A stretch of DNA of 64,000 nucleotides, taken from Spirochaetaceae bacterium 4572_59. GTDB lineage: Bacteria; Spirochaetota; Spirochaetia; DSM-2461. Made by a program: the position numbers and the translations under genes. The stretch covers positions 1-64,000 of the forward strand of contig NBMC01000026.1 in assembly GCA_002084805.1 (NCBI GenBank), read 5' to 3'. Positions 29-59,826 of this stretch are shown here, in pieces (position 1 is the stretch's first letter; each line of letters starts with the position of its first letter). The notes under the pieces are model-generated. The model had not been told where the DNA came from. It made no database searches and worked only from the letters and a program-made list of their open reading frames with translations.

Positions 29-580
29 TCAGACAACTGCCTCTAACATTGAAAAATCACTTCGAGTCAGTTGCTTGAAGAGGTATGCGAACTTTGAGTT
101 ATAATATGCATTCATTGAAACGGCAGTATAAACAATATGGCCATCTTTATGTATGAAGCGTTTTTCCACAGTATAAGCTTCTATTTCATGAGCCAACATT
201 TTATTAAATTGACTTATATCTGCGTCTAAATCATCAGCATAGGTTAGTTCTACCCAAGTCATTTTTTCCAACTCTTCTTTGGAATAACCAAGCATTTCAC
301 ATATAGCGTCATTTATTTCAATCCACTCTTTATTGACTGAAGTAATTGTCATTCCAATCAAATTTTGTTCAAAGTATTTATGAAAACGTTTGTCACTTGT
401 CAATAACTCTATACTTACTGTTCGTAGTTGTTTTTCTGTTGCTGATAACTTTTGCTGACTTAGCTTAAGTTGTTGATTTGCCACTTGTAGATTTCTTTCG
501 AACTCTTTATTTTTTTTACTCAACTCTTTCAATTCAATGGCAAATTGACCTTTTGTTTTATTCAAATCATTTTTCATCAC
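29..580 (-). CDS. Coiled-coil plus PAS-domain protein, probably truncated
   Basis: This 183-residue protein has a charged coiled-coil stretch (about residues 8-58) followed by one PAS domain (about 64-155; motifs such as GMTITS, EMLGYSKEEL and KRFIHKDG are typical PAS core). PAS domains bind small ligands or mediate signalling and usually precede a kinase or GGDEF output. Here the PAS fold breaks off after the last core strand (VYTAVSMN), and an unrelated 25-residue tail ends at a stop at 29. No output domain follows. It is therefore either a stand-alone sensor or, more likely, a remnant of a larger signalling protein cut by a rearrangement near position 110. Confidence 0.55.
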   Translation of the reverse strand: MMKNDLNKTKGQFAIELKELSKKNKEFERNLQVANQQLKLSQQKLSATEKQLRTVSIELLTSDKRFHKYFEQNLIGMTITSVNKEWIEINDAICEMLGYSKEELEKMTWVELTYADDLDADISQFNKMLAHEIEAYTVEKRFIHKDGHIVYTAVSMNAYYNSKFAYLFKQLTRSDFSMLEAVV

Positions 581-718
581 CTATCCTCCTGTTATTTTAC
601 AACAGAGAATTGACTGAACTCTTTCTCTATGCCATCACCAACATGTTGGTATCCTGTTGTCATAAGATCTTTTACTTGAAGTTCAATATAGATTTTACCA
701 CAGAACAGGTTCAAAACA

Positions 719-784
719 CAGGCGGACTTGCATTAACATCTCGTGGCGCGTGGTATAGTTTAATTCTAAGCGCCAAATAGCCTG
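719..784. repeat. Nested inverted repeat in the gap before the DTW gene
   Basis: CAGGC at 719-723 pairs with GCCTG at 780-784, and inside it GGCGC at 745-749 pairs with GCGCC at 770-774. The two arms are unequally spaced (21 versus 5 bases), so any structure would be bulged. No T-run follows. The rest of the 581-826 gap holds nothing else I recognise. Confidence 0.3.
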
Positions 785-826
785 CCCCCTATGAGGAGCA
801 AGGATTTAACTGCTACAATTGATACT

Positions 827-1312
827 ATGAAGATCTACCTACTGACCCATCAGAGGGAGTTTAAACGCCCCAGCAATACCGGGAATATCGTCACAAGAAT
901 TGGCATCACTATTGCGAAAGCTATCCCCTGGGAACGCAAAAACTCAAATCTGGAATTACTCGAAACTATTAAGGATAAAAACACGGTTCTCCTCTTTAAT
1001 AATCCGGAAGCTGAGATCATTAAAGATAAACTACCCTATGATAATTTTATCATTTTGGACGGAACATGGCAGGAAGCAAAGAAAATTTACAATAAAAGCC
1101 CTTACTTGAAAGAGATGAAAACCATCAATCTTCAAACCGGCAGAAAATCTATTTACAGTCTCAGACGTAATCAGAAAGAAAATGGACTTTGTACAGCAGA
1201 GTGTGTGGCCGAAATCTTAAGACTGAAAGGGAAGCGAGAGCAAGCGGAAAAACTGGATATGGCCTTTCAGGAGTTTATGAATCAATGGACTATTAAGAAA
1301 AGCCAACCATAA
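827..1312 (+). CDS. DTW-domain protein, probable tRNA-uridine aminocarboxypropyltransferase (TapT family)
   Basis: The family transfers the 3-amino-3-carboxypropyl group of S-adenosylmethionine to uridine in tRNA, making acp3U. The protein shows the family layout: an N-terminal THQREFKRPSNTG segment, a central LLFNNPEAE loop, the diagnostic D-G-T-W motif (LDGTWQEAKK) and a downstream R-Y/R-x-L-R-like segment before LCTAECVAEIL. It is short for the family and lacks the N-terminal CxxC zinc site often present. An upstream ATG at 791 is in frame, but homologues normally begin close to the MKIYLLTH segment, so 827 was preferred. Neither start has a convincing ribosome-binding site. The substrate is inferred from family only. 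Confidence 0.75.
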   Translation: MKIYLLTHQREFKRPSNTGNIVTRIGITIAKAIPWERKNSNLELLETIKDKNTVLLFNNPEAEIIKDKLPYDNFIILDGTWQEAKKIYNKSPYLKEMKTINLQTGRKSIYSLRRNQKENGLCTAECVAEILRLKGKREQAEKLDMAFQEFMNQWTIKKSQP

Positions 1313-1322
1313 AGGCTGGCTT
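1300..1322 (+). terminator. Weak hairpin at the end of the DTW gene
   Basis: AAGCCAACC at 1300-1308 pairs with GGCTGGCTT at 1314-1322 with one mismatch. The DTW stop codon lies in the loop, and a short T-rich stretch follows. It sits between convergent genes and could act on both strands; the T-run is poor. Confidence 0.4.
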
Positions 1323-1347
1323 CTATATCACTCAGATAAGCGGAAAA

Positions 1348-1734
1348 TCATGCCAGACGCTCAGCTCCGCAGTATACCTCTTCAACATTCATATAAAAGG
1401 CGGCCTTGGGAGTCAACTGAGGATGGTTTGTATGTACCCATTCAACGGCATCTGTATATTTCTGTCCTTCTGTGGCACACTCCATCTTACCCTTAATCTG
1501 ATAAGATTTTTTAGTATCAGGATCCAGCACAGTGAAAGAAAGAACGGGATTGTCATCAAGATTTTTTCTTGTCTTATCAAATTTATTATCTGCGATCAGA
1601 ATTGTCTCATCGTCAAGGGCCTTTAGATAAGTAATATAAACGACATTGGGAACACCGTCTTTACTTGCTGTTGCGATACAGGTTGGCATTGTTTTTTTAA
1701 TTGCCACCTGAACTTCTGTTGATAATTTTGCCAT
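1348..1734 (-). CDS. Pyridoxamine 5'-phosphate oxidase-like flavin-binding protein
   Basis: A 128-residue single-domain protein of the PNPOx-like split-barrel fold. The sequence begins with a helix (LSTEVQVAIKKT), then the strand pair CIATASKDGVPNVVYI, a segment ILIADNKFDKTRKNLDDNP typical of small FMN- or F420-binding members, and a C-terminal KMECATEG strand. True PdxH enzymes are about 210 residues, so this is one of the short general-stress or flavin-reductase-like members and not a vitamin B6 enzyme. It is monocistronic, convergent with the DTW gene and divergent from the cyclase gene. The substrate is unknown. Confidence 0.75.
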   Translation of the reverse strand: MAKLSTEVQVAIKKTMPTCIATASKDGVPNVVYITYLKALDDETILIADNKFDKTRKNLDDNPVLSFTVLDPDTKKSYQIKGKMECATEGQKYTDAVEWVHTNHPQLTPKAAFYMNVEEVYCGAERLA

Positions 1735-1911
1735 TTATAGCTCCTTAATGGGAATATTCTCATATTAAACTATCAATATAACGTTAAATGCTCAACTATA
1801 ATATTCAGAAACAACAAGGTTTATTAAAAAAAGTTCCCAGCCCGGATTCATACCATCAATAATGATAATATCCTAATTGAAAACGGGGGTAATCGGAACT
1901 ATGATATAGAT

Positions 1912-3108
1912 ATGTTTATCTTTTTTGATATAAAGACTCTCGGCATTGTAAACATCCTTATGTCTGTAACATTCAGTTTACTGATTCTATTAATCAGGAT
2001 TCAATTCCCCAAACAGTTTAAAGGCACCACGCTCTGGTTTATTGCCCTGTTTCTGCCATCTATCTCTTTTACATTATCCTTATTAAATAACCCATCCCCC
2101 GATCAGCTACAATATACGGATACCCTTCCCATAAGAATTATGAGCCTCACCTATATAGTCAGTAATCTTTTTTTAAAAATGGGATGGCGGAAATTTTTTC
2201 AAGAGAATATCAGGATGCTCTATAATAGCTTTTTATTATTTCTTTCTCTTTTATTCCCGATAATCCTTAAAAAATTCAAGATTCCCCCTACAATAATATT
2301 CAATACTTTCAATATCATAATCTATTCTCTTCTTCTGATGTTCATTTTGAAAAAATACAAAGAACGACACAGTTATGCTTCTCTTCCGATTATCCTGTTG
2401 AATGGCCTGGCATTGTTCACAGCAATAATTCCGATCCTGTGCTATATTAGAAACGATTATAATTTGAACCCAGAACTCTCGATTATCATTGCCTCCATTA
2501 CCTATATGTTCAGAAATACCTTTGTTCTGTTTTCAATCTATGTGGCTGTAATATTCCAATTCAAAGTGAACCACAATGCGATTCTGGAAGAAAAAGATCA
2601 ACTTGTAAAAGAACTTGAAGTCTTATCTGTTACGGATTCACTGACAGGGCTTTATAACAGACGCGGATTTGACAGCTTTATAGATTATGAGTTCAAACAG
2701 GCCAAAAGACAGGATTCCCTTTATACCGTCACCCTGGGAGATATCGATTTCTTTAAAAATGTTAATGATAGCTACGGACATGACTGTGGTGATTATACAA
2801 TAAATTGTATCTCTCAAAAGATTCAAAAAAATCTACGGGAACAGGACTGCCTGGCCCGATGGGGTGGCGAGGAGTTTATCATATTACAGAAGAACTCTCT
2901 GGAAACAACCCAGAAGGTAATAGACAGAATACGAAAACAAATTGAAGAAATGGAATTAAGCTATGAGAATCACATTTTTTCCATTACTATGAGTTTCGGA
3001 ATTGCTCAAATGTCCAAAAACGATACACATTACGACAAGGTTATTATTCATGCGGATACCATGCTCTACAAAGCAAAAGAAAACGGCCGAAATAGGGTCG
3101 TCTATTAA
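1912..3108 (+). CDS. Membrane-anchored diguanylate cyclase (GGDEF)
   Basis: It makes cyclic di-GMP from two GTP. Residues 8-215 carry about seven hydrophobic segments forming a membrane sensor. A short coiled coil (about 223-238) leads to a GGDEF domain at 240-398. The active-site loop reads GGEEF (318-322), a functional variant. The metal-binding aspartate sits in GDIDFFK (276-282). An RxxD inhibitory site (R309-D312) lies exactly five residues before GGEEF, so product feedback inhibition is expected. The start has no obvious ribosome-binding site. The next gene overlaps its 3' end. No phosphodiesterase domain is present. Confidence 0.9.
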   Translation: MFIFFDIKTLGIVNILMSVTFSLLILLIRIQFPKQFKGTTLWFIALFLPSISFTLSLLNNPSPDQLQYTDTLPIRIMSLTYIVSNLFLKMGWRKFFQENIRMLYNSFLLFLSLLFPIILKKFKIPPTIIFNTFNIIIYSLLLMFILKKYKERHSYASLPIILLNGLALFTAIIPILCYIRNDYNLNPELSIIIASITYMFRNTFVLFSIYVAVIFQFKVNHNAILEEKDQLVKELEVLSVTDSLTGLYNRRGFDSFIDYEFKQAKRQDSLYTVTLGDIDFFKNVNDSYGHDCGDYTINCISQKIQKNLREQDCLARWGGEEFIILQKNSLETTQKVIDRIRKQIEEMELSYENHIFSITMSFGIAQMSKNDTHYDKVIIHADTMLYKAKENGRNRVVY

Positions 3109-8325: not shown

Positions 8326-10353
8326 TTAAGATGAAGTCAAAATGGATCGAATAAAAAGTTTTATCCGACTCCAGTCATTATTCTTTGGTAATACGATCCA
8401 TCCACCCTTATAAAACCCGGGATCTTCAAGGGCTTTTTCCTGTTCCTCATCGCTTAGGCGATACAGGTTTGTATAGGTCGCATATAATACATTATCGGTA
8501 TTAAGGACATTCTGTCCATTTATTTTATAATCCTTATAGCTCAGAAAATACCTAACCAGATCAGATGTGGATAAATTAGTACCCAAATACTTCTGAGCCA
8601 CCTGCATAAAGTCATACATCTTCGTAATATCGCTAATACCCATATCGCTCACATTGTCCCGCAATGCGGCAATCACTTTCTGCTGCCTTACGGCTCTCTC
8701 AAAGTCGGATGAGGTATGCCTTGAGCGAGCTATCCGCAGTGCGGCTATTCCATCCAGATGATGCTCTCCCCGGGGATAGTACAATGTTGACCACTGTCCA
8801 TTTTCTCTGACCTTATAGGTCGGATCTATAAGGGCCTCATCAAGTTCCACATCAATCCCGCCCAACAGATTAACAACATCAATAAAGGCATACATATCTA
8901 TGGCCACATACCTACTTATATCCAGACCTGTTATAGTAGACAGTTCCGATGCCAACCTTGCAGGACCATAGTTCCTGTAGATGGAGTTGATCTTCAAGCC
9001 CTTATAATAAAGGTCTCTTGGAACACTCAGCATAACAATCTCTTCAGTAATGCTGTTGCAATGAACAATAATCATGGTATCCGCATTATGCTCATGACAT
9101 CCGATCAGAAGAAAGGTTTCTGAACCGGAAGAAGGCATATAGATAGATGGTTCGGAGGATTCAACACTATTTTCCTGAAAGGAGTAGCTCAGTTCATGAT
9201 CCGGGGCAAAGGTTTTCAGAGAACGAACGGGAATATCATCCCGGTCCATCAGATAGAGTTCTCCGAATTCCTTCTGCAGGGCATAGGATCCTGCCAGTTG
9301 TCCCTTCTCATCTGTTAAATCGTAATAAAGGTAGTCATTATCTTCCCGATGATCCGCTTCTATGGAATATCCCAGGTTTTTAAGATGGGCAGTAAAAGCG
9401 GGATCCTTCATAAGATTATTCATCTCATTCAGAACAAGGTCGTCCATAATTTCAGCATCTGTCCGGAGATCATTCTTCTCAAGATAGAGGAGAACCGCGG
9501 CCATCAATTCATCAAGTGAGTTCAAATTCTGTTCTTTCAGCATAAAGGACATAGCCTCAATACTTGTTGATAAAACAGTTAATACCGTAGCATCCTTTCG
9601 AAGGATAGGAATCAGACAATTAACCCCTTTAAAGGAGGAAGATCCCAGAGATAAGTCACGGTCTCTCAATTCGTTCTTAAAGGCCCTGTTAGCATAGAGA
9701 GACCCCAATTGAGTATTGAGTCCCTCAATGGCCTTGTAAGCCAGTTTCTGACGGGAATATTCATCAGAGAGAAATTGAATACAGCCGGTATCAATCTGTT
9801 GAAAATGTCTGCTCTCATCGCTGAGTCCCGGAAATAGTTCAACTGTATTGTCAGAAATATCATATTGAATAATAAAGTATTCAGTCTCTTTGTCTCCACT
9901 GAGGATCCAATTAAAATCACTCTTCTTTTTTAGGGTCAGGGAGTGCTCGTTTACAAATTCCTTCAGCTTGTCTGATTGAAGGAAACTGTTAAATCTCTGA
10001 ATTTGGGAATACTCATTATTATATTTATTCAGAAAAAGAGCCGCATCATAGGCAGCTAATTCAAAACTGTTTGTTTCCGGACTGTCAGAGTCTGTGGAAT
10101 CATCCCCGACTCTATCAGGAAACTTCAGTGCCGGAAGACTCAGATACTGTCTCAGCTGCTGGGCATTCTGTTTTACAAGATCCTGTGATTCATTTATAAA
10201 ACCCAAATCATCCCTGGTCTGGTTTATAAAATGATTCAGCATTTCATCCTGAGCCGTGATCCGGCTTCTGAGAGAAATCTGGTTTACTAGGGTAAATACG
10301 AAAACAACTGCCAGTAGGGCAGTTGCCGTCGTAATGAGAATTTTATTTTTCAT
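8326..10353 (-). CDS. LCP-family (LytR-CpsA-Psr) envelope glycopolymer transferase with a long extracytoplasmic insert
   Basis: LCP enzymes transfer lipid-linked glycopolymers to peptidoglycan or similar acceptors outside the membrane. One N-terminal transmembrane helix (TTATALLAVVFVFTLV) is followed by about 370 residues of mostly helical, unassigned sequence, then the LCP domain (about 415-560). The domain shows MLSVPRDLY, KINSIYRNYG and RIARSRHTSSDFERAVRQQ, which hold the pyrophosphate-binding arginines and aspartates. An ATG with GGAG 12 bases upstream was preferred to the TTG at 10371. LCP proteins are best known in Gram-positives; the long insert is unusual. It is first of the LCP, LapA-like, SPOR set. 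Confidence 0.85.
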   Translation of the reverse strand: MKNKILITTATALLAVVFVFTLVNQISLRSRITAQDEMLNHFINQTRDDLGFINESQDLVKQNAQQLRQYLSLPALKFPDRVGDDSTDSDSPETNSFELAAYDAALFLNKYNNEYSQIQRFNSFLQSDKLKEFVNEHSLTLKKKSDFNWILSGDKETEYFIIQYDISDNTVELFPGLSDESRHFQQIDTGCIQFLSDEYSRQKLAYKAIEGLNTQLGSLYANRAFKNELRDRDLSLGSSSFKGVNCLIPILRKDATVLTVLSTSIEAMSFMLKEQNLNSLDELMAAVLLYLEKNDLRTDAEIMDDLVLNEMNNLMKDPAFTAHLKNLGYSIEADHREDNDYLYYDLTDEKGQLAGSYALQKEFGELYLMDRDDIPVRSLKTFAPDHELSYSFQENSVESSEPSIYMPSSGSETFLLIGCHEHNADTMIIVHCNSITEEIVMLSVPRDLYYKGLKINSIYRNYGPARLASELSTITGLDISRYVAIDMYAFIDVVNLLGGIDVELDEALIDPTYKVRENGQWSTLYYPRGEHHLDGIAALRIARSRHTSSDFERAVRQQKVIAALRDNVSDMGISDITKMYDFMQVAQKYLGTNLSTSDLVRYFLSYKDYKINGQNVLNTDNVLYATYTNLYRLSDEEQEKALEDPGFYKGGWIVLPKNNDWSRIKLFIRSILTSS

Positions 10354-12020: not shown

Positions 12021-13298
12021 ATGAAAAAAATATTATTTAACTTATTACTTATTATGATTTTGGCAGGATGTTCCGGTGACGGAATCTTCTACGCTCTCGA
12101 AAATGAAGAGAGAATCGTAGATGCCAACAATATGGGAGACCATACTCCTCTGGATAATATGTTTATCTACTCGGACGGTTCAAGTAAATACTATGTTGCC
12201 AACGGCACTAGAGTTTGGTACAGCCTGGTTGGAGCAGATACAAACAGCTGGAATACCTTTCCCGTTCCTTCCGCATACAGTAAATACCCCACTTTCCCAT
12301 CCATTGCTCAGCTGGACGGAGAGCTTTATGCAACAATTATCAGCCACGAAGCAAACTACAGGAGTGGTCTTCTGAAGCTTGATCGTGCAACAAAAGAGTG
12401 GGTAGAGATCCTCTATGATGTAAAAAACGACAGTAGCCTAAGTGACTATACCTACTCCAACATGTATCTGTTCGATACCAAGCAGGGTCTCTATATCAAC
12501 AAGGTTTACTACTATAAAGACAGCTCCGAAGTATCAATCAAGAACAGCCGACTCTACTTTTATGCCACTGCGGATGAGGGGACTCTTGCCGGAGCTGACG
12601 AACTGACAGCATCTCATGAGCTGATTGCGGGAATAGATTTTCCCGGCTTTAATATTCCAGCTATATCCGCTGAAAGCGATCCCCAACGGATAGTGGATAT
12701 AGTCTCCGGTAACGGATTAGAGAGCTATATGATCTACAATATTGACGGTAGTGCCAATAAGAATGGTGTTTTGGCCTACTCTGCCAGTAATCCGTCTTCC
12801 TTTTTTACTACCCCTGAAAATACTGGCACAGATAAATATGATTTTATAAGCATCTATTACTCCTCAGTTCAGGATATGGTTTTTATGGGAACAGAAGGCA
12901 GCAGCGACACCCATCCCTTATTTTACAAACAGACGGGAGCTGACTGGAAGTCAAAGGCATTTAATAATGACTACGAGTTTGCCGCATTCTGTGATATAGA
13001 CAGCATACAGTCCAAAACAATCCTGGCCGGAACACGGGCCTTTAAAGACCCCTCAAACAGTTCTTCCAACCTGGGAGACGGCTATATTGAAATTGATGTG
13101 ACAAATCCTGAGGATCCCAGCCTGCAGAGTAATACATTTTCCGAAGACAATAACTACTCAAGCAGTGACCTTGAAGATGCCACTATCAATAATTTTTTCT
13201 ACGACAGCGACAATGACAGGCTCTATGCCGCTACAAGAAATTACGGTTTGTGGCTGAATACAAAAGAGGGTAATGACAGAGAGTGGTCTCAGGAATAA
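12021..13298 (+). CDS. Lipoprotein with probable beta-propeller-like body
   Basis: A 425-residue lipoprotein: MKKILFNLLLIMILAGC has a canonical lipobox (LAG-C, Cys17). The start at 12021 was chosen because it gives this signal peptide with GAGGAAATC just before the ATG; an in-frame ATG at 11979 lies inside the preceding gene. The body has recurrent Tyr/Trp-rich segments (YYVANGTRVWYSLVG, LDGELYATII, ILAGTRAF, RLYAATRNYGLWL) that look like WD/Kelch-type blades. No enzyme motif was seen. It follows the barrel gene by ten bases and is terminated by the hairpin at 13331. The function is unknown. Confidence 0.65.
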   Translation: MKKILFNLLLIMILAGCSGDGIFYALENEERIVDANNMGDHTPLDNMFIYSDGSSKYYVANGTRVWYSLVGADTNSWNTFPVPSAYSKYPTFPSIAQLDGELYATIISHEANYRSGLLKLDRATKEWVEILYDVKNDSSLSDYTYSNMYLFDTKQGLYINKVYYYKDSSEVSIKNSRLYFYATADEGTLAGADELTASHELIAGIDFPGFNIPAISAESDPQRIVDIVSGNGLESYMIYNIDGSANKNGVLAYSASNPSSFFTTPENTGTDKYDFISIYYSSVQDMVFMGTEGSSDTHPLFYKQTGADWKSKAFNNDYEFAAFCDIDSIQSKTILAGTRAFKDPSNSSSNLGDGYIEIDVTNPEDPSLQSNTFSEDNNYSSSDLEDATINNFFYDSDNDRLYAATRNYGLWLNTKEGNDREWSQE

Positions 13299-13330
13299 AG
13301 TCCGTATAGCCCGGACACAGGTATTTCAAA

Positions 13331-13364
13331 AAAAGCCCTGCTTGAAAAATGCAGGGCTTTTTTT
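13331..13364. terminator. Strong bidirectional rho-independent terminator
   Basis: AAAAGCCCTGC at 13331-13341 pairs with GCAGGGCTTTT at 13351-13361 around a nine-base loop, with A-run on one side and T-run on the other. It serves the lipoprotein gene (plus) and the phosphoribosyltransferase gene (minus). Confidence 0.9.
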
Positions 13365-13386
13365 ATAGATAAAGTTATTGGTATAA

Positions 13387-13995
13387 TTATTTCTTTTTAT
13401 TCAACAGTTCAAAAACTTCCAGCAGTTCACTGTCTTTGCTTATAAACTGATCTTGCTGTTCCTCTTCGCTAAGACCTACCAGTTCATGACTCATATAGTG
13501 AATCCACACATCATCTTCCTTTTTGTCCAGTTCAAACTTCCGGCAGAAATAATCGGGCTGTATAGGCAGACGTTCTTTATAGCTATGTATCTTATAATCA
13601 TGAACGACGACTTTTATATCCTCACGGGGAATACCCTTTTGAAGGATGGTCTCTACCAGATGATTCAAAGTTCTTCCCGTGTCAAAAATATCATCAATAA
13701 ACATAACTTTATCACCATTTCTCAGGTACGCAGGATTATAGGTCCAGCCATCTATCATGATATTATCCTGCTGTTTTATGTCGGTATAGGACCTGGCAAC
13801 AACGGCCGCATAGAATACAGGTCTTTCATTCTTCCGGACAATCTTAAAGAACTCACTGAATACATTTCCCATATAGGCTCCACCTCTCAGGGGAACATAG
13901 ATTACATCGGGAACAAATCCATCCTGATAAACCCTATAGGCCAGTTTCAGTGCATTATTTCGAATTACATCATAAGGTGTAAAAAGTTTGCTCAT
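13387..13995 (-). CDS. Phosphoribosyltransferase-domain protein
   Basis: A type I phosphoribosyltransferase fold of 202 residues. The PRPP-binding loop is VMFIDDIFDTGRTL (about 104-117), preceded by the conserved PLRGGAYMG loop. The closest family by appearance is the xanthine/hypoxanthine-type or archaeal-like PRTases, with a C-terminal extension ending in lysines; the base substrate cannot be read from the sequence. It stands alone between two terminators. The start is ATG with a weak upstream site in an AT-rich leader. Confidence 0.8.
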   Translation of the reverse strand: MSKLFTPYDVIRNNALKLAYRVYQDGFVPDVIYVPLRGGAYMGNVFSEFFKIVRKNERPVFYAAVVARSYTDIKQQDNIMIDGWTYNPAYLRNGDKVMFIDDIFDTGRTLNHLVETILQKGIPREDIKVVVHDYKIHSYKERLPIQPDYFCRKFELDKKEDDVWIHYMSHELVGLSEEEQQDQFISKDSELLEVFELLNKKK

Positions 13996-14060
13996 TTATT
14001 ACTCTCAATTATTTTTATTTTAATAGTTATTATAGTTTATTCACACTTAAAAGGGAATAA

Positions 14061-14095
14061 AAAAAAGGGATTGCCCGTTAAAAATAGGCAATCCC
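14061..14095 (-). terminator. Rho-independent terminator after htrA
   Basis: On the minus strand GGGATTGCC (14087-14095) pairs with GGCAATCCC (14067-14075) and is followed by eight T residues. It closes the ppi-nusB-TPR-map-htrA run. Confidence 0.85.
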
Positions 14096-14116
14096 CATAT
14101 TCATAATAGTCAGGAT

Positions 14117-15613
14117 CTATTTTCTTTTCAATTTTGAAGATTCCATTTCAACGCCCTCCCTGAGAGAGGAAATATAAAAATACTCATCATCCAGATCATT
14201 CAGGATAGAATAAAAGTCACCCAGGTTTTTAACTACCACACCATTAATTCCAGTAATGATATCACCAGCCTGAATACCGGCAATCTGAAAAGATGTTTTT
14301 GGATATACTTCGGCAACAAAAACGCCTGTTGTCTCTTCGGGAAGTTCCAAACGTTCCAAAAGCTCTTTTTGTACCGTAAAAACAGAGACTCCCGGCCAGG
14401 CCTGATTATTCATCTTCCTGACCTCCTCTTCCGCTTCACGTTCTGTTATTTTAACCTTGAGAGACATTTGGCGGTCTTCTCTCATCAGAACAAACTCGGC
14501 TATATCATCGGGACGCATATCTCCGATCATCCTGGTAAGATGATTCTTATCAGTAGCTTTAACACCGTTTACAGAAAGAATAAAGTCACCGGGACAAAGA
14601 CCTCCCTTCTCTGCAGGAGAATTGTTAAACACCTGATATACAAAGGCACCCTTCTTTCCTTTCAGTTCAAACTCGTCTGCAATAAGTTCAGGAAGGTCCC
14701 CGATGCTGACTCCCAACCATCCATAGCGGACTTCTCCATTATCGATAAAATCACGGATCGTTCTTTTAACATTATTGATGGGAATACTGAATCCCAAACC
14801 GATGCTGCCACCGCCTGATGTAGTGATCCATGTATTGATACCAATAACTTCCCCTTTCAAATTGACAAGAGGGCCACCTGAGTTCCCCTGATTGATAGCA
14901 GCATCAGTTTGTATGAAGTCGTTAATATTCCCATCGGGACCATTTTGACGCCCCAGCGCACTGATAATACCGGCTGTAACGGAAAATTTATATCCAAAGG
15001 GGCTGCCAATAGCCAGAACCCAGTCTCCCACGAAGAGAGAATCGGAATCTCCAAGATTTGCTACGGGGATCCCCTTGTCTTTGGTCTCAAACTTCACAAG
15101 TGCCAAATCTTTTCTAGGATCTGATCCTACAAGTTCCGCATCATAATCAATTCCGTTATCCAGCTTCACAGTAATTTCATCAGCCTTTCCGCAAACATGA
15201 TAATTGGTCACAACATAATAAGTATTCTTATCTTTTTCAACAATAAAACCGGATCCCAAACCAGCACTTCTGAATTCCTGTACATCCGGTTCAGTACCGT
15301 CTAAACCTTCTCCGGGATTCCCGAAAAAATAATCCCATGGAAAACCATTAGCCTGAGCTGTTTCCCTGGAGCTAAGCTTCACCGTATTTATTTCTACAAC
15401 CCATGGAAGTGTTTCTGCCGCTACCTTGCGAAAGCCGTTTTGAAAATTTTCAATAGTTTCCGCTTCTGCTGTATTAGGTTCAGCATAAACCTGAGATGCC
15501 GGTTTCAATGCTGGTAGAAAACTATAAAGAAACAGACAAAGTATAAATCCTGCAATTGTGCCGCCTAATGCGGTAATTGCAATTTTTGAACGCTGTTTGC
15601 TATCATTACTCAT
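14117..15613 (-). CDS. htrA: HtrA/DegP-type serine protease with two PDZ domains
   Basis: A periplasmic quality-control protease and chaperone. An N-terminal membrane anchor or uncleaved signal (about 11-32) is followed by a trypsin-like domain with the catalytic triad His139 (TNYHVCG), Asp169 (DPRKDLAL) and Ser245 (QGNSGGPL). PDZ1 is at about 295-385 and PDZ2 at about 400-490. 498 residues is normal for Do-family members. AGGAG lies about ten bases before the ATG. It is last in the run that starts with the flavodoxin-like or ppi gene. A second, one-PDZ HtrA lies at 54-55 kb. Confidence 0.92.
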   Translation of the reverse strand: MSNDSKQRSKIAITALGGTIAGFILCLFLYSFLPALKPASQVYAEPNTAEAETIENFQNGFRKVAAETLPWVVEINTVKLSSRETAQANGFPWDYFFGNPGEGLDGTEPDVQEFRSAGLGSGFIVEKDKNTYYVVTNYHVCGKADEITVKLDNGIDYDAELVGSDPRKDLALVKFETKDKGIPVANLGDSDSLFVGDWVLAIGSPFGYKFSVTAGIISALGRQNGPDGNINDFIQTDAAINQGNSGGPLVNLKGEVIGINTWITTSGGGSIGLGFSIPINNVKRTIRDFIDNGEVRYGWLGVSIGDLPELIADEFELKGKKGAFVYQVFNNSPAEKGGLCPGDFILSVNGVKATDKNHLTRMIGDMRPDDIAEFVLMREDRQMSLKVKITEREAEEEVRKMNNQAWPGVSVFTVQKELLERLELPEETTGVFVAEVYPKTSFQIAGIQAGDIITGINGVVVKNLGDFYSILNDLDDEYFYISSLREGVEMESSKLKRK

Positions 15614-16459: not shown

Positions 16460-18112
16460 TTATTTTATTCTGTTTAATTGACTCTTGGCATTGAAATTGT
16501 CAGGATTGAACTGAATGGACTTTTCAAACGCCCCGGAGGCATTCCGGAAATCTTCCTGATCAAGATACATTTCTCCCAGATTGACATACATATCTGAAAG
16601 AAGATCTTTTCCATTCAGCATGGATGTCTCTTTGCTCAAGTCGCTAATGGCAGATTGGATCTGCATTATAGCTATATCCAGATAACCAAGACTGTAATTC
16701 AGCATAGATTTATTTCTTTCATAAAGCCATGAGGGGAAAATTCTGGAAGCCTCTTCCATTTTTTCAAGAGCCTTGTCTATATCCTGTTCCAGAAAGAACA
16801 GGATCCCCTCATAAAATAGATACCAGTGAGGTTTTTCCGCAGCATAATCATAACGCTTCAACACGATCCGGAGACTCTTACTGTCCCCCAGTCCGGACAG
16901 ATACCAGAGAAGAAATCTTGCGACAGATTCATCCTGATCCCCATTATTAAAATACTCCCATAAATGTGCCTGATACTGTGTTGAATTCATGGGATCGGGA
17001 AAATAGCGGATTTTCAACAATTTGGCTTCCATATCATTCGGAAAATGACTGATATGGGCCTCCAGTTTCTTTTTAACTATAAGACCATAATCCTCAGCAA
17101 AAAAAAGAACATAATCTGTTAACAGTTCGATCTGATTGGGAAAAGCTTCTAATCCCTCTTCCAGGATAATTTTTGCCTTCCGGCTGTATCCTCTGTCATA
17201 ATAGAGCCGTGCAATATTACGGTAAAGCTTCCAGCTACCCTCTGCATGAAGAGACAGACCTGTTTCATAAGACGCTAAAGCTTCGTCCCCTCTTCCCAGA
17301 AGGTATTGAAGATCGCCTATCTGCTCTTTCATGGAAAAACGCTGATTTTCCTTCATTTCATCAACGATATCCTGAGCCTGATAGAATTCCAGAGCATTCT
17401 TATATTTTCCAAGATCATAACTGACAATCCCCATCCTATAGGGAGAAATTTTGTTTAATGAAAGGCCTTTAAGAATATTTTCAGCATCCTGAAACTGACC
17501 TTTTTCCATATAAAGCAATAACGCATTATAAAGGAGTACTTCATTATCAGCCAGTGTTCCAATGATCCTGAAAAAATCAGGATCTTCCTGATAGCCTATT
17601 TTTTCTTTAATAAAATCAATGGGACTCTGATCGTGAAAAGAGTAATTACGGTAAACTTCAAAGGATAAAAGACTTTCAGCACTGAGAGTTTCAAAACCTG
17701 GCTGCTTGATGGAATATAAACTGGCAGCAGCCCGTTCATACTGATCAGTCCAGAGAAGAGATGCTGTAAAAAGAGCATCATGTTCAGGACCAGCCTTTAT
17801 AAACTTTCTGGATCGTTCGATAAGATCATTAAATGTGGAATAATCATTGAGAGCATGACAAGAGATGTAGGAGCGCTTAAAAAGGCTGAACCACTGGTTC
17901 TTTGTATCTGCGTATCGAGATGCCCTTATTAAAATATCGGGGACATCCCTGTAACGTTCTACTTTAACAGACAGATCTGATTGATCAAGATAGAACTGGA
18001 ACCGGTTTTCATCCGCTTGAAAAAGGATAAAGACTCCCAGTATACTGGCAATCATAAAAAGAATCAGAGCGAGTATCAATAAGCGCCTGACATTCCCTGC
18101 ATCCTGACCCAC
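16460..18112 (-). CDS. Membrane-anchored TPR protein
   Basis: A 550-residue protein with one N-terminal transmembrane helix (about 9-29) and a long array of helical repeats. Clear TPR units are seen near the end (MYVNLGEMYLDQEDFRNASGAFEKSIQFNPDN) and in the middle (YRNIARLYYDRGYSRKAKIILEEGLEAFPN). It is probably a scaffold; partners are unknown. The start is GTG with AGGA just upstream, seven bases after the nusB stop, which implies translational coupling. Similar TPR proteins occur three more times in this window. Confidence 0.75.
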   Translation of the reverse strand: MGQDAGNVRRLLILALILFMIASILGVFILFQADENRFQFYLDQSDLSVKVERYRDVPDILIRASRYADTKNQWFSLFKRSYISCHALNDYSTFNDLIERSRKFIKAGPEHDALFTASLLWTDQYERAAASLYSIKQPGFETLSAESLLSFEVYRNYSFHDQSPIDFIKEKIGYQEDPDFFRIIGTLADNEVLLYNALLLYMEKGQFQDAENILKGLSLNKISPYRMGIVSYDLGKYKNALEFYQAQDIVDEMKENQRFSMKEQIGDLQYLLGRGDEALASYETGLSLHAEGSWKLYRNIARLYYDRGYSRKAKIILEEGLEAFPNQIELLTDYVLFFAEDYGLIVKKKLEAHISHFPNDMEAKLLKIRYFPDPMNSTQYQAHLWEYFNNGDQDESVARFLLWYLSGLGDSKSLRIVLKRYDYAAEKPHWYLFYEGILFFLEQDIDKALEKMEEASRIFPSWLYERNKSMLNYSLGYLDIAIMQIQSAISDLSKETSMLNGKDLLSDMYVNLGEMYLDQEDFRNASGAFEKSIQFNPDNFNAKSQLNRIK

Positions 18113-20528: not shown

Positions 20529-21281
20529 TTATTTATTAAAATTAGCCAATGAAGCAAAAGAGTCGGCTTTAAGGGATGCTCCCCCGATAAGACCGCCGTC
20601 AATATTTTCCATAGCCATTAATTCCTTGATATTTTCCGGTTTCATAGATCCACCGTACTGTATAACCATTTTTTCAGCCGCTGCAGCAGAGTACATTTCG
20701 GCAATTTTCTTCCTGCAGGATGCGTGGATAGCATCTGCATCATCGGGAGTGGCCGTTTTACCAGTTCCGATTGCCCATACAGGTTCGTATGCAATGACGA
20801 CATTGTCAAGTTCTTTTTCAGATACACCTGCCAGACCTTTCTCAAGCTGCTCAAAACATACTGTTTCAGCCTTTCCGGCCTCTCTTTCTTCCAGAAGCTC
20901 ACCAATACAAAGTACAGGCATCATTCCGTGCTTCAGAGCCAGTTTAACTTTTGCGTTAATCTGTTCATTGCTTTCACCATAAATATGTCTTCTTTCGGAA
21001 TGTCCGAGAAGAACAGCGTCTACAGCCAGATCTTTCAGCATAAGAACAGAAGTTTCACCAGTAAAGGCGCCCTCTTCAGTTCCAGCCATGTTCTGAGCGG
21101 CTACGATAATATTGCTTCCCTTCAGTACTTCAGCAACACCGGGAAGACAGACAAAAGAAGGAGCAACCATTACTCTGTAATCGCTGTCTTTAACCAGGGT
21201 GAGGATTTCCTTCGCAAGCTGTACAGCTTCAGAAGGAGTCTTGTTCATTTTCCAGTTTCCTGCAATGAGATAATTTCTCAT
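20529..21281 (-). CDS. tpiA: Triosephosphate isomerase
   Basis: It interconverts dihydroxyacetone phosphate and glyceraldehyde 3-phosphate. The 250-residue enzyme shows the catalytic lysine in AGNWKMNK, the electrophilic histidine in LLGHSERRH, the catalytic glutamate in VIAYEPVWAIGTGKTA with its mobile loop, and the phosphate-binding QYGGSMKPEN and GGLIGGASL. All active-site residues are intact, unlike its upstream neighbour pgk. Confidence 0.97.
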   Translation of the reverse strand: MRNYLIAGNWKMNKTPSEAVQLAKEILTLVKDSDYRVMVAPSFVCLPGVAEVLKGSNIIVAAQNMAGTEEGAFTGETSVLMLKDLAVDAVLLGHSERRHIYGESNEQINAKVKLALKHGMMPVLCIGELLEEREAGKAETVCFEQLEKGLAGVSEKELDNVVIAYEPVWAIGTGKTATPDDADAIHASCRKKIAEMYSAAAAEKMVIQYGGSMKPENIKELMAMENIDGGLIGGASLKADSFASLANFNK

Positions 21282-21313: not shown

Positions 21314-22438
21314 TTATTTTCTCAATGCTACAACACCGGGCAGAGCTTTTCCTTCCAGATATTCCAGAGAAGCTCCAACAGAGTCTCCACCACCAACAAC
21401 CGTTGTACCGGCACAATCAGCTACAGCGTTTGCAACATCAAGGGTTCCCTTGGCAAACTTGTCAAACTCAAAAACACCCATGGGACCATTCCAGACGACA
21501 GTTTTTGCCGAGGCAATTCTGTCTTCAATGGCTGCGACAGTTTTGGGGCCCACATCCATAGCTAGCTTTCCATCAGGAATATCCACAGAATCAATGGCTT
21601 CAGGTTCAGCATTTTCACTAAACTCAGAGGCAACGATATGATCCATGGGAAGGATAACTTCCACACCGGCTTTTTCAGCATTTTTCAGAAACTTTTCAGC
21701 TGTTTCGATAAATTCCTCTTCGAATAGAGAGTTACCGATGGTATGCCCCTGTACTTTCAGAAATGTGTATGCCATTCCGCCACCGATTACAAAGGTATTA
21801 CACTTGTCAATCAGGGATTCCAGAACGGCAATTTTTGAGGAAACTTTCGCACCACCGATAATAGCGACAAAGGGGCTTTCAGGATTTTCCAGAACTTTAT
21901 CAAAGAAAAGACACTCTTTCTCCATGAGAAAACCTGCACAGGCAGGTAGATATTTTGTGATTCCTTCTGTAGAAGCATGGGCTCTGTGAGCTGCTCCGAA
22001 GGCATCGTTTACATAAACATCAGCCAGCTTTGCCAAGTCTGCAGCAAAGGCTGCATCATTTTTCTTTTCTGCTTTGTGGTAACGGGTATTCTCCAGAAGG
22101 AGGATTTCACCGGCTTTCAGTTCAGAAGCCATTTTTTCTACTTCCGCACCAACACAATCAGGAGCTGTTGTTACTTTAACTCCGCAAATTTCAGCAAGAT
22201 GAGCCTCAAGTTGTTTCAGGCTGAACTGGGGTTCTCTCTCTTCCGAGGGTCTTCCCAGATGGCTCATCACAATCAGTGATGCTCCATCCTGTTCCAGTAT
22301 GTACTTTAAAGTAGGCAGTGCTCTCTGCATTCTGGTATCATCAGTAATAACACCATCTTTTAGAGGAACATTGAAATCTACGCGTACCAGGACACGTTTA
22401 TTCTTAAGATCAAAATCTTTTACAGTAATTACACCCAT
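21314..22438 (-). CDS. pgk: Phosphoglycerate kinase with an in-frame deletion near the C-terminus
   Basis: It would transfer phosphate between 1,3-bisphosphoglycerate and ADP. N-terminal substrate residues are intact ([40 protein letters not shown]), as are IGGAKVSSK and [11 protein letters not shown]. At 374 residues it is about 20 shorter than usual bacterial enzymes. The loss is at one place: GGGDSV (near 355) runs straight into [10 protein letters not shown], so the family segment of about 19 residues containing GLADK and the S-T-G-G-G turn is absent. That turn contributes to phosphate binding and catalysis, so activity is doubtful. The deletion keeps the frame; a sequencing or assembly error cannot be excluded. 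It lies between gap and tpiA. Confidence 0.9.
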
Positions 22439-22449: not shown

Positions 22450-23448
22450 TTATATCAATTTCTGAGCCAGGTCGACTACACGAGTGGAATAACCCATTTC
22501 GTTATCATACCAGGAAATAACTTTAAAGAATCCTTTACCCATTTTCATGGTACACCCTGCATCAAAGATGGAGGAATTAGGATTTCCTTTGATATCCATA
22601 GAGACTATGGGGTCTTCTGTATACTCCAGAATCCCCTTCATAGGCCCTTCGGCTGCTTCTTTAATTGCTGCATTCACATCTTCAACTGTGCAGTCTTTTT
22701 CTAGCTGTACCGTCAAATCCACAACAGAACCGGTAGGAGTGGGAACTCTCATGGCTCCACCGTTTAACTTACCCTCAAGTTCTGGGATAACCTTACCAAC
22801 CGCTACTGCCGCACCGGTGGTGGTGGGGATAATATTCATGGCAGCTGAACGGGATCTTCTCAGATCCGGATGGGGAGTATCTAAAATTACCTGATCATTT
22901 GTATAAGCATGGATCGTTGTCATCAGTCCTTTTTCAATACCAAAAGAATCATTCAATACTTTGGCAACAGGCGCCAGACAGTTGGTTGTACAGGACGCGT
23001 TGGAATAGGCTGCTACATCCCCGATGATTTTTTCTTCATTCACACCGAGAACAACAGTTTCGATCGCATCTTTTGCGGGTACAGTGAGAATAACCTTCCC
23101 GGCACCGGCAGTGATATGATCGAGATAACCGCCCATATCACTTGTTGCGGAACGGAAGATCCCGGTGGATTCAATAGCGACATCCACGCTCAACTCTTTC
23201 CAGGGAAGATCCCTAGGATTGCGAATAGCAAAGATTTTAATCTCTTTTCCATCAATGATAATGGCATCGTCCTTTGCTTCAACTGTTTTATTATAAACTC
23301 CGAACGTGGAGTCGTATTTCAGGAGATGAGCCAGAGTTTTGGCATCGGTCAGATCATTGATACCGACAATTTCCACCCCTTCTCTTTCCATGGCTATTTT
23401 AAAAACATTCCTTCCAATTCTTCCAAAGCCGTTTATAGCAAGATTCAC
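22450..23448 (-). CDS. gap: Glyceraldehyde-3-phosphate dehydrogenase, type I
   Basis: It makes 1,3-bisphosphoglycerate with NAD. The Rossmann start [16 protein letters not shown], the catalytic cysteine in [12 protein letters not shown], the catalytic histidine in IHAYTNDQ and the C-terminal [10 protein letters not shown] are all present; 332 residues is normal. The usual tryptophan in the last motif is methionine, a substitution also found in some other family members. The start is GTG behind GGAGG. It is the first gene of gap-pgk-tpiA-secG, preceded by a good promoter. Confidence 0.96.
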
Positions 23449-55367: not shown

Positions 55368-57806
55368 CTAGATATCGTCCATTACTTCTCCGATTTTTCT
55401 GTTTAATTCGTTATACTGATAGGGTTTTCTGATAAATCCGTTAAGTCCTTCTTCCTTCATTGCCAGAAGATCCTCACTCAGTGTAAACCCCGAGGAAATT
55501 ATTACTTTAATATCCTTGTCCAGATTTCTCAAGTCGCGAAAACAATCTTTACCATTCATTCCCGGCATAGTCATATCCAATAATACCAGTTGAATAGAGG
55601 CATTTTCAGTTCGGAAAATATCTAGCGCTTCCAAACCATTCTCAGCTTGAATAACATTCAAATTCATGAGCTCAAGCATCCCCATAGCGGCTTGTCTCAT
55701 GGCAGGTTCATCATCAACCACTAATACTGTTTCATTATTTCCTCTATACTCACCCATTTTTTCATGAGTCGAGAGTAATATCCCGGTCTTTAATGGAAAT
55801 AGTAATTTGAATACTGTTCCTTCTCCAATTTCACTATATACCGTGATTAAACCCTTATGTTGCTTTACAGTTCCGAAAACAGCTGCTAATCCAAGGCCTG
55901 TACCCTTGCCCTGGGGCTGTGTAGTAAAAAAAGGTTCAAAAATCCGGTCCTGAATTGCCTTGGGAATACCACAACCATTATCCCTGATTTCTATTTCTGC
56001 ATATGCCCCTGGTTTAAGAGAGTTAGCAAGAGTTTTAACCATATGGTCTGTTATTTCAATTTGACCTGTCGAAACCCAGAGATCACCACCATCAGGCATA
56101 GCATGAGAGGCATTTATAAACAGATTTAAAAAAGCATTCTGCAGTTGAGACAGATCGCCATTAATCATCAAAGGAGATTCATTAAACTCCTGATGCAGCT
56201 GTATCCGGGGATCGGCTGTATGCACAAATAACGCAAAGGCTTCCTTGAGAGATAAATGAATATCAAGCAAAACCATAACTGAAGAATCATGCCTGGCAAA
56301 CATCAGTAATTTTTCTGTTAAATCAGCGGCTCTACGGCTGGATGTCAGAATCATATCCAGAAATTGAGCCTGTTTGCTGTCTTTTTCAATATAATTTGCC
56401 AAAAGCTCAGCACCACCCATAATACCGCCCAGCATATTATTAAAATCATGGGCGATCCCTCCGGCCAATTCTCCGACAGCCCGCATTTTTTGAGATTGCT
56501 GCAGCTTCTCCCGCATTCTATATTCATCCGTTATATTCCTAAATACGAGGACAACACCAATGACTTCCCCTGTTTCTGTACGGATAGGAGCGGCAGAATC
56601 ATCAATAAGCCATTCTTCTCCTGTCTTACTTTGCAGTATTACCTTATCATCCTGCTTTACGGGGTTTTTGCTTTCAAGAACTTTACTGATAAGAGTGTCT
56701 ACCTTCTGTCTCGTTTTATTATCAATTATCCTGAAAACATCCTCCAGTGGCCATCCTATAATATCTGCTTCATTCCAACCGCATAGTTTTGAAGCCGTAT
56801 GATTCATGGAGGTAATAAATCCTTCTGTATCGCTTGTGATAACCGCTTCGGCTATTGATGCAAGAGTAACTCTTAACTGTTCCCCACTTTTCTGTAATTC
56901 GCTCGTTTTACTGTCTATAAGTCTTCTTAGTAAGTGGTTCCAAAAGATTGAGATAACAAGAAGAATGACAATGCAAAGCAAAGCTGCCGCAATATAGCGG
57001 ATTGTCGGTCTGTAATCCTTTAAATCGTCCAGATCATAGACAGCAAACCACTTTGAGTAAATTTTCTGATACTCTCCTGAACTTTTTAACTGGCTCAACC
57101 CTTCATTTATTAAAGCCAGCAGTTCTACTTCTCCTTTGGGAACGGCTATAGAATAATATCGTTTTAATACAGGAGGGCCGCTTATTTTGATATTTTTAAG
57201 CTTCTCCTCCTTTATAAAAACAACTCCCTGCAAGCGGGAAAGAATAGCGGCATCACCAAGTCCGCGGTTCAGACTTTCCATAACTTCTTCAGCGGTATCA
57301 CACAGAATAAGCCTTTCGGCTATCTGATTATTCATCATAAAATCGAAACCTACATCACTTTTCATAACGATGACAGATTTTTCATAAAGGTCATTTATTG
57401 ATTGAATCGGGGAGTCTTTTCTAACAAAAATAGCATAGGAGGCCACAAAATGAGGAACAGAAAAATCAACCTTTTTCTGCCTTTCTACTGTATTGAACAT
57501 CCCCATTAAAACATCGATTTTACCAGTTTCAAGCTCGTTTCGAACCTTACCCCAGAGATCCAGCTGAATATCAATTTCCAGCCCGACAATCTCTGCCACG
57601 GCTCTCATAATATCTACATTGAATCCTGCGGGCTGGTTATTTTCATCCAGATACTCATAGGGTGGATAAGCATAATCCCCTTTAACCAGAAGAGGACGAT
57701 CAAGCTCTTGAGACCTGCCTGATTCATTTGAATCCTTAACATCCTGAGAAAAAAGAGATGTACAGATAAGAAAAAAAAATGACAGATTGATCAGGATCAG
57801 CCTCAA
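55368..57806 (-). CDS. Hybrid sensor histidine kinase with periplasmic substrate-binding (SBP_bac_3) domain
   Basis: An 812-residue sensor: signal segment (LILINLSFFFLICTSLFSQ), a family-3 solute-binding domain (about 40-255; YPPYEYLDENNQPAGFNVDI) typical for amino acids, a transmembrane helix (about 270-290), a PAS domain (about 305-425), a HisKA domain with the phospho-accepting histidine in GELAGGIAHDFNN, a HATPase_c domain (DNGCGIPK, GKGTGLGLA) and a C-terminal receiver domain (VLVVDDEP, LVLLDMTMPG). The start is the TTG at 57806, seven bases after GGAGG; the ORF extends to a TTG at 57827 without a site. Its cognate output protein is not adjacent. Confidence 0.92.
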   Translation of the reverse strand: MRLILINLSFFFLICTSLFSQDVKDSNESGRSQELDRPLLVKGDYAYPPYEYLDENNQPAGFNVDIMRAVAEIVGLEIDIQLDLWGKVRNELETGKIDVLMGMFNTVERQKKVDFSVPHFVASYAIFVRKDSPIQSINDLYEKSVIVMKSDVGFDFMMNNQIAERLILCDTAEEVMESLNRGLGDAAILSRLQGVVFIKEEKLKNIKISGPPVLKRYYSIAVPKGEVELLALINEGLSQLKSSGEYQKIYSKWFAVYDLDDLKDYRPTIRYIAAALLCIVILLVISIFWNHLLRRLIDSKTSELQKSGEQLRVTLASIAEAVITSDTEGFITSMNHTASKLCGWNEADIIGWPLEDVFRIIDNKTRQKVDTLISKVLESKNPVKQDDKVILQSKTGEEWLIDDSAAPIRTETGEVIGVVLVFRNITDEYRMREKLQQSQKMRAVGELAGGIAHDFNNMLGGIMGGAELLANYIEKDSKQAQFLDMILTSSRRAADLTEKLLMFARHDSSVMVLLDIHLSLKEAFALFVHTADPRIQLHQEFNESPLMINGDLSQLQNAFLNLFINASHAMPDGGDLWVSTGQIEITDHMVKTLANSLKPGAYAEIEIRDNGCGIPKAIQDRIFEPFFTTQPQGKGTGLGLAAVFGTVKQHKGLITVYSEIGEGTVFKLLFPLKTGILLSTHEKMGEYRGNNETVLVVDDEPAMRQAAMGMLELMNLNVIQAENGLEALDIFRTENASIQLVLLDMTMPGMNGKDCFRDLRNLDKDIKVIISSGFTLSEDLLAMKEEGLNGFIRKPYQYNELNRKIGEVMDDI

Positions 57807-57969
57807 TAAAAAACCTCCGCTTGTCAAATCATAGGATGCTACAAGTTTTAATTATATCATTAGGATAATAGATATTTATTCAAAGCTCAAGAAACGGAGA
57901 ATTTTTCGACTAAGGATATTTGAGACAATCCCGAACATCCCGGAGGAGGTTCAGGAATATCTGTAAAAA

Positions 57970-58344
57970 TTAGATTACAGCGATAACTTCAATTTCTACC
58001 AGGGCATCCAAAGGGAGTCTGGCAACTTCAACGGCGCTTCTGGAAGGAAAATCGCCACTGAAAAACTCTTTGTACACTTCATTCATGGCTGCAAAATTGT
58101 TCATGTCGCTCAGGAAAACAGTTGTTTTGAATACTTTATCCATAGAAGAACCAGCTTCTTCAACGATAGATTTAACATTATTAAGAGACTGTCTTGTCTG
58201 CTCAGTGATTGATTCGGGCATTTTACCTGTTTCAATATTAATTGGAAGCTGACCGGAAGTATAAACACTGTTGTTTACAATATTTGCCTGTGAGTAGGGG
58301 CCGATTGCGGCAGGTGCTTTTTTTGTACTGACTATCTTTTTCAT
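57970..58344 (-). CDS. ridA: RidA-family enamine/imine deaminase
   Basis: It hydrolyses reactive 2-aminoacrylate and related enamines to keto acids and ammonia. The 124-residue protein has the family motifs AIGPYSQAN, SGQLPIN, FPSRSAVEVARLPLDALVEIEVIAV (with the substrate-binding arginine). The ATG at 58344 lies five bases after GGAGG. Its upstream neighbour is diaminopropionate ammonia-lyase, whose product is aminoacrylate-type, so the pairing is functionally sensible. The 142 bases downstream hold no clear terminator. Confidence 0.93.
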   Translation of the reverse strand: MKKIVSTKKAPAAIGPYSQANIVNNSVYTSGQLPINIETGKMPESITEQTRQSLNNVKSIVEEAGSSMDKVFKTTVFLSDMNNFAAMNEVYKEFFSGDFPSRSAVEVARLPLDALVEIEVIAVI

Positions 58345-58364
58345 ATGTTCCTCCAAAGTTTTAC

Positions 58365-58378
58365 GCGGATTATACCGC
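58365..58378 (-). promoter_or_regulatory. TATAAT box of ridA inside a GCGG/CCGC palindrome
   Basis: On the minus strand a perfect TATAAT is flanked by GCGG and CCGC, making a 14-base palindrome about 20 bases before the ridA start. A -35 element is weak. This suggests ridA has its own promoter and that a dimeric repressor may cover the -10 box. Confidence 0.4.
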
Positions 58379-58436
58379 TTTAATTCAAATAATTACTATA
58401 AAAACAACCACAAGTCTTAATGCTGATGGTGGTAGT

Positions 58437-59648
58437 TTATTCAGCTCCATAATAGATAATATCTTTATAGTTGTCAGGATCTGTATCACCTTCTGTGTTA
58501 AACAAAAGTACGACAGAGTCCTTATCAAGACCCAAATGGTCTCTTACTTCACTCAGTTCATTTCTTCTCATCAGAAAATCCAGTAAACCAATTCCAACAG
58601 ATCCGGATTCACCTGATACAATTTTTTTGTCTTTCCCCCGCGGGCAGGCTAACAGACGCATTCCTACTGCAGAAATGAAATCGGGACAGGCAAAATATAC
58701 AGAAGCAAAATCCCTCAGGATTTCCCATGTAACCAGATTTGGTTCCCCACAGGCTAATCCTGCCATAATGGTATTATGGTCCCCTTTTACAGCATGAGGC
58801 TTCCCGTCATTGGTCATGGCAGATTTATAGATACAGGCCGCGTTATTAGGCTCTACAATGGCAGTCACCGGATAGTTTTCTTTAAATTTATTAACATAAT
58901 ATCCTAAAACACCACCAGCCATCGCTCCAACCCCTGCCTGCAGGAAGAGATGAGTCGGCCTATCAATTCCTGCTGCCTCTAATTGCTTTTGAGCCTCGTC
59001 AGCCATAGTCATATAGCCCTGGGATATCCAGTTTGGAATTTTTTCATATCCTTCAAAGCCTGTATCCTGAACAAGGATCCAACCGTTTTCATCGCCGGTT
59101 TTTGAAGCAAGTCTTACAGCATCATCATAGTTCAGGTCTGTTACATGAATCTCCGCACCGGCCTTTCTGATAGCCTCGACCCTTGTTTCAGCCGCCCCCT
59201 TAGGCAGGAAGACAACAGAGCGACAGCCGATTCTTGAGGCGGCCCAGGCAACTCCCCGTCCATGGTTACCGTCAGTAGCTGTAACAAAGACAATATCTTT
59301 AATTTGATCATACACTTCTTTTGTTTTCAGATAGTCAAAACTTATCTCTGAGATATTCTTGCCAATCTTTTCACAAATCACCTGGGCAATGGAATATGTC
59401 CCCCCCAGAGCCTTGAAGGCATTCAGGCCGAAACGGAAAGACTCATCCTTGACGTATATTCCCTTAACACCCATATCCTGAGCCAGAGTATCCAGACTGA
59501 CCAGAGGTGTTTCTGAGTATTCATCTATGGTTTTATGGAAATTAGTAACTTTCTGAACTTCCTTACTGTTAAAGAGTTCAGGATAAGCTTTATAATTTTT
59601 TTCTGTAGCAACAGCTTTAATTCTGAATGCTTCATCAAATATCTTCAT
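58437..59648 (-). CDS. dpaL: Diaminopropionate ammonia-lyase
   Basis: A pyridoxal-phosphate enzyme that breaks 2,3-diaminopropionate into pyruvate and two ammonia. The 403-residue sequence shows the PLP lysine (K79 in RFGLNAFKALGG), TATDGNHGRGVAWAASRIG, the glycine-rich phosphate loop LQAGVGAMAGG and the late motif SGESGSVGIGLLD, all as in E. coli YgeX. GGAGG lies six bases before the ATG. It is preceded by a -24/-12 promoter and two palindromes, and followed by ridA. Confidence 0.92.
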   Translation of the reverse strand: MKIFDEAFRIKAVATEKNYKAYPELFNSKEVQKVTNFHKTIDEYSETPLVSLDTLAQDMGVKGIYVKDESFRFGLNAFKALGGTYSIAQVICEKIGKNISEISFDYLKTKEVYDQIKDIVFVTATDGNHGRGVAWAASRIGCRSVVFLPKGAAETRVEAIRKAGAEIHVTDLNYDDAVRLASKTGDENGWILVQDTGFEGYEKIPNWISQGYMTMADEAQKQLEAAGIDRPTHLFLQAGVGAMAGGVLGYYVNKFKENYPVTAIVEPNNAACIYKSAMTNDGKPHAVKGDHNTIMAGLACGEPNLVTWEILRDFASVYFACPDFISAVGMRLLACPRGKDKKIVSGESGSVGIGLLDFLMRRNELSEVRDHLGLDKDSVVLLFNTEGDTDPDNYKDIIYYGAE

Positions 59649-59692
59649 ATTAATCCTCCATGAATGTTATAAATATAATTATACAAACACTA

Positions 59693-59709
59693 TGCAATCA
59701 CTATGCCAA
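59693..59709 (-). promoter_or_regulatory. Sigma-54 (-24/-12) promoter of dpaL
   Basis: On the minus strand TTGGCATAGTGATTGCA has GG and GC separated by exactly ten bases, and matches TGGCAC-N5-TTGCA apart from one T at the -24 side. It is 45 bases before the dpaL ATG. Confidence 0.8.
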
Positions 59710-59804: not shown

Positions 59805-59809
59805 TATCA

Positions 59810-59824: not shown

Positions 59825-59826
59825 TC

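Follow-up and report, generated by a model that had tools for sequence, protein, structure and literature searches.

The window (the whole stretch of DNA analysed here, 64,000 nucleotides) contains a phosphoglycerate kinase (PGK) gene, pgk, which sits on the minus strand between gap and tpiA (Table 1). The encoded protein belongs to the PGK family, with a PF00162 score that compares with a curated cut-off of 27 bits and a best stretch covering profile positions 1-352 of 379. Its nearest named record is L032 from Spirochaeta sp. UBA5339, a spirochaete metagenome assembly. The congener regions that correspond to the remainder of the window contain no good counterpart of its right end (55368-63877), which encodes a hybrid sensor kinase, a PLP enzyme, a sigma-54 activator, and a DEAD-box helicase, among others; a relative of the helicase is present elsewhere in the congener G003.

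Table 1. Features of the pgk locus and genes with internal holes elsewhere in the draft assembly (G000).
Feature	Location	Strand	Evidence or remark
gap, type I glyceraldehyde-3-phosphate dehydrogenase, intact	window 22450..23448	minus	TIGR01534, 427.8 bits, over cut-off
pgk, 374 aa as assembled, 19 internal codons absent	window 21314..22438	minus	ORF and Pfam PF00162, 481.7 bits
GGGDS motif, kept	window 21380..21394	minus	just upstream of junction; then one Val codon (21377-21379)
Deletion junction, GACTCTGTT/GGAGCTTCT	window 21376..21377	minus	57 bp absent relative to congeners
tpiA, triose-phosphate isomerase, intact	window 20529..21281	minus	TIGR00419, 189.2 bits, over cut-off
adhE (aldehyde/alcohol dehydrogenase), several frames	L163 (G000:C26) 224-1959	minus	at least 4 segments absent relative to G001
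ProX-like, glycine-betaine/choline-type ABC transporter	L220 (G000:C67) 8465-9199		clean hole relative to G003
ProW-like, glycine-betaine/choline-type ABC transporter	L220 (G000:C67) 14586-15318		clean hole relative to G003, at contig end
FtsH	L164 (G000:C30) 150-2292		~65 bp absent near C-terminal tail
HAD-IG 5'-nucleotidase	L164 (G000:C30) 13160-14368		52 residues absent soon after N-terminal DMDYT motif
MinD-like ATPase with ferredoxin motifs	L151 (G000:C5) 16799-17508		~55 residues absent relative to G003 (160 bp, out of frame)

Alignment of pgk with its counterparts in the congeners G001, G003, and G005 revealed a gap of exactly 57 bp, equivalent to 19 residues, between window bases 21377 and 21376, with a placement ambiguity of 1-2 bp. 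At this position the relatives have the residues AAVNKF.LADKIDHVSTGG. With this segment the protein has lost the greater part of helix 13, the strand that follows, and S-T-G-G in the hinge loop, while the GGGDS motif and one G of STGGG are retained. The initial annotation had described a PGK of 374 residues that lacks its S-T-G-G-G region, with a junction near 21374-21379 and a loss of "57 or so" bases in a multiple of three. Both the open reading frame and the congener alignment confirmed the length, the missing region, and the location; the deletion is indeed in frame, its size can now be given exactly, and most of STGGG, rather than all of it, is gone. Homology at the junction amounts to 1-2 bp (0 or 1 bp by automatic count, maybe 2 by eye), and the nearer contig end lies 21 kb away.

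Three aligned solved relatives have 19 residues between GGGDSV and GASLE that the window pgk does not have. Otherwise, the gene resembles bacterial PGKs (PF00162; structures 1vpe and 1php) in its whole N-domain, its GGGDS motif, its C-terminal GASLE..EGK..LPG tail, and its gap-pgk-tpiA neighbourhood. We fetched 109 PGK loci (L003-L111), some of which are the same gene obtained by two routes, so that they do not represent 109 independent genes; a motif search found identical spacing between the two motifs in 107 of them. In L057 the segment is present and the tail motif is slightly different, bringing the number of loci that carry the segment to 108, and the remaining locus, L031, is a gene fragment that matches residues 1-280 only and ends before the segment. 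STGGG itself (S370-T371-G372-G373-G374) is invariant in 26 of 26 aligned relatives. A degenerate DNA pattern for the short join, which detects one form of join only, matched 5 of 392 genomes of the phylum, compared with 6 for a backward-read control. Among the five, the window alone represents a short PGK: L127 (G051) carries the segment in a pgk of full length, and the hits L124, L125, and L128 fall in frames with stops and are not PGK. Comparison with the pgk of relatives, a check named in the initial annotation, yielded no other short PGK among either the 109 loci or the matches from 392 genomes.

We also considered whether the short form might be a trait of the genus, and this was ruled out by the presence of the segment in G001, G003, and G005. 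In G002, the gene is divided between two contigs that, taken together, cover residues 1-280 and 281-393 of the complete protein; the match in G004 covers residues 1-59 only. Viral contigs were searched with two exact patterns for further alleles from this species, and neither gave a match.

In an AlphaFold model of a full-length congener protein, the greater part of helix 351-359 and a short strand that follows it consist of the lost residues. A second model, of the short protein, has a mean pLDDT of 91.4; the helix is gone, and confidence falls locally to 63 compared with 90 in the full-length model at residues 351-360, and to 70 compared with 88 at residues 321-330. The hinge of human PGK is assigned to Ser392-Gly394 (strand L, loop L14), and Thr375 is said to contact ADP, in the portion of PMC3900376 used here. 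Matched by motif, the human hinge would, in our reading, correspond to the lost STG and Thr375 to the retained GGGD(S/T). In addition, the human PGK1 deficiency variant T378P, which affects helix 13, keeps 1.5% catalytic efficiency according to the section of PMC3279470 consulted. From the mutagenic primer given in that paper, we place Thr378 at the first lost position; the human variant is a single substitution, whereas the window pgk has lost 19 residues. A protein translated from the gene in its assembled form would almost certainly lack activity. PGK domains that have lost substrate- or ATP-binding residues do occur among the "dead" PGKs of kinetoplastids, as described in the part of PMC7729029 that we used, but there each is one among several isoenzymes, whereas the window pgk is the sole copy in its assembly.

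The assembly (G000, 3.29 Mb, 93.51% complete) encodes phosphorylating glyceraldehyde-3-phosphate dehydrogenase (GAPDH), phosphoglycerate mutase, enolase, and pyruvate kinase, and the pathway therefore needs PGK. A second pgk, also proposed as a check in the initial annotation, was sought in the assembly and none was found. Searches for PF02730 (the AFOR family, to which GAPOR belongs) and for TIGR00160 (methylglyoxal synthase) gave no match in the assembly, whereas both are present in the four congeners searched; this absence may reflect real loss or another gap in the draft. Three aldehyde-dehydrogenase genes were found in the assembly, encoding ProA, a SauS/acetaldehyde-dehydrogenase-like protein, and the broken adhE. 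Growth of Corynebacterium glutamicum on both glycolytic and gluconeogenic carbon sources depended on pgk, according to the part of PMC3996851 consulted.

Apart from the gap, the sequence of pgk is unblemished. We aligned it with 85 of the 109 relatives, the other 24 having been dropped by a length and frame filter, and found 101 columns in which identity among these relatives reaches 97% or more. The window pgk deviates at six of these, all within the gap, and at 0 of the 95 that lie outside it. Its dN relative to the three congeners (0.092-0.122) is like that of its neighbours relative to the same genomes (0.102-0.117 for tpiA and 0.116-0.147 for gap). There is therefore neither relaxed selection nor any further lesion of the kind expected from pseudogene decay. 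We conclude that the lesion either arose extremely recently or is absent from the organism itself.

To place the gap in the context of the draft, we compared 1.04 Mb of the 3.29-Mb assembly with genes of at least 150 aa from a 1.28-Mb portion of the complete congener G003. Matches of at least 60% identity were accepted, and an internal stretch of 15 aa or more that was cleanly missing counted as a hole. Six of 101 genes in the assembly contained a hole relative to G003: the FtsH tail, the HAD-IG 5'-nucleotidase, the MinD-like protein with ferredoxin motifs, the ProX-like and ProW-like proteins, and pgk. In the reverse direction there were none (0/101). Comparison of G003 with the window-equivalent regions of G001 and G005 likewise gave no holes (0/31 and 0/36), and neither did the reverse comparisons (again 0/31 and 0/36). 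With the G001 and G005 regions against the assembly, 1 of 24 and 1 of 23 genes were holed, and each time the gene was pgk. Together with adhE, which has no match in G003 and whose remaining pieces are well conserved and align well with G001, the five other genes from the survey bring the number of genes holed besides pgk to six. Holes similar to that in pgk are thus found elsewhere in the assembly and are absent from the relatives compared.

Nucleotide alignment resolved hole lengths of 65, 160, 83, and 57 bp, and of 67, 156, 151, and 120 bp within adhE. The HAD-IG and ProX holes, which the nucleotide script did not report, measured 52 and 70 aa by protein alignment. Homology at the junctions relative to congener DNA was 0 or 1 bp by automatic count at all of the nucleotide-resolved holes, and inspection by eye placed one adhE junction at an 11-bp direct repeat. 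The holes in FtsH, ProW, and adhE lie less than 2 kb from a contig end and the other four lie 6 to 21 kb away. That 3 of 7 holed genes fall within 2 kb of an end, compared with 14% of the surveyed bases, is suggestive only, and adhE was not drawn from the survey.

A genome undergoing ordinary decay would be expected to carry nonsense changes and small frameshifts as well as large deletions. Among the 101 genes, ProW, which is also holed, was the only one in which an internal stop or small frameshift was detected. Two further genes had a stop within the first ten aligned columns only, which we read as a difference in start sites. Alignment coverage exceeded 90% in 89 of the 101 genes; in the 12 with coverage of 90% or less, a lesion could be missed. 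The reverse survey showed one gene with a one-base shift near the N-terminus and two with N-terminal stops.

Although the shortened pgk is confirmed as an observation on the assembly, it is probably not a real feature of the biology. Judged from the sequence comparisons, we think it quite likely that the missing 57 bp are an error of a draft assembly that drops short internal segments in several places. This reading is favoured because the hole in pgk is not alone, given 6 of 101 genes in one direction and none in the other. Because the affected genes show holes but are otherwise clean, with four or more holes in one of them, the simplest common cause would be technical. The holes would then have arisen in sequencing or assembly and not in the cell, perhaps when contig ends were joined across low coverage or through chimeric amplified molecules, and the organism itself would probably carry an ordinary full-length pgk in a gap-pgk-tpiA operon.

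Several observations weigh against an assembly error. Given 1-2 bp of homology and a distance of 21 kb to the nearer contig end, neither simple collapse of a repeat nor proximity to an end accounts for the pgk junction. Apart from pgk, the genes with holes seem either to be dispensable or to be affected in a variable region (ProX, ProW, the HAD nucleotidase, the FtsH tail, and adhE, which is unmatched in G003), a pattern that is also expected of real deletions filtered by selection. Furthermore, pgk is the only holed gene when the window genes are compared with G001 and G005. The initial annotation had attributed an assembly error specifically to GGTGGTGG repeats. Whereas an error of assembly is what the holes elsewhere best support, collapse at these repeats was rejected, because it would be expected to join GGG to ASLE and lose DSV, yet DSV is kept; the short junction homology likewise speaks against it.

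A real and very recent 57-bp deletion that destroyed the sole pgk, either in the cells that were sequenced or in a fraction of the population, is in our estimation unlikely. The protein might then bind ligands partly but could not close its domains, and both glycolysis and gluconeogenesis would stop at the PGK step unless the substrates or partners of the organism avoid it. A clean junction with so little homology is what illegitimate deletions leave, and an otherwise intact gene is expected of a fresh lesion; the loss of the helix and of local confidence in the short model, as well as the residual efficiency of T378P (in the part of PMC3279470 cited above), fit a destroyed enzyme. However, pgk was indispensable on either type of carbon source in C. 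glutamicum (the part of PMC3996851 noted above), no enzyme that bypasses the step was found in the assembly, and holes without point lesions in other genes indicate one technical cause. The untouched remainder of the gene and the lack of a second pgk in the assembly also make a lesion in this central gene, as raised in the initial annotation, the less likely account.

It appears highly improbable that the short PGK functions despite having lost most of helix 13 and the STGG hinge. In its favour, the deletion preserves the reading frame and leaves every other near-invariant residue in place, and the predicted model is confident overall, but such a model, being derived from aligned homologues, carries no information on activity. 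The STGGG residues, most of which the protein lacks, vary in none of the 26 aligned relatives, no other short form occurs among the loci and pattern matches described above, and the residues matching the human hinge by motif (the portion of PMC3900376 cited above) are among those lost. It is an extremely remote prospect that another enzyme covers the step (a non-phosphorylating GAPDH, a ferredoxin-dependent GAPOR, a methylglyoxal route, or a second pgk) and has left pgk free to break: although a gene could be unseen because the assembly is incomplete and seems to lose segments, the assembly has one pgk, the two families sought are unmatched, the three aldehyde dehydrogenases are those named above, and the rest of pgk shows no relaxed selection. 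Hence, the three readings of the initial annotation are supported in part, with assembly error the best of them, a real lesion less likely, and a covering enzyme not found in the assembly.

If the holes were real, which we regard as quite improbable, the lineage or the sampled cells would recently have experienced a burst in which short deletions, but no point lesions, arose. One of these deletions would have taken out the hinge of the sole PGK, and the organism would live either with an enzyme lacking its hinge or without classical lower glycolysis. It would then be a bacterium that has no normal phosphoglycerate kinase and whose deletion spectrum is unusual. If, instead, the holes are artefacts of the draft, metabolic reconstructions and claims of gene loss made from it would be unreliable, and a reciprocal test, in which the genes of a complete congener are compared with the draft and back, exposes such holes.
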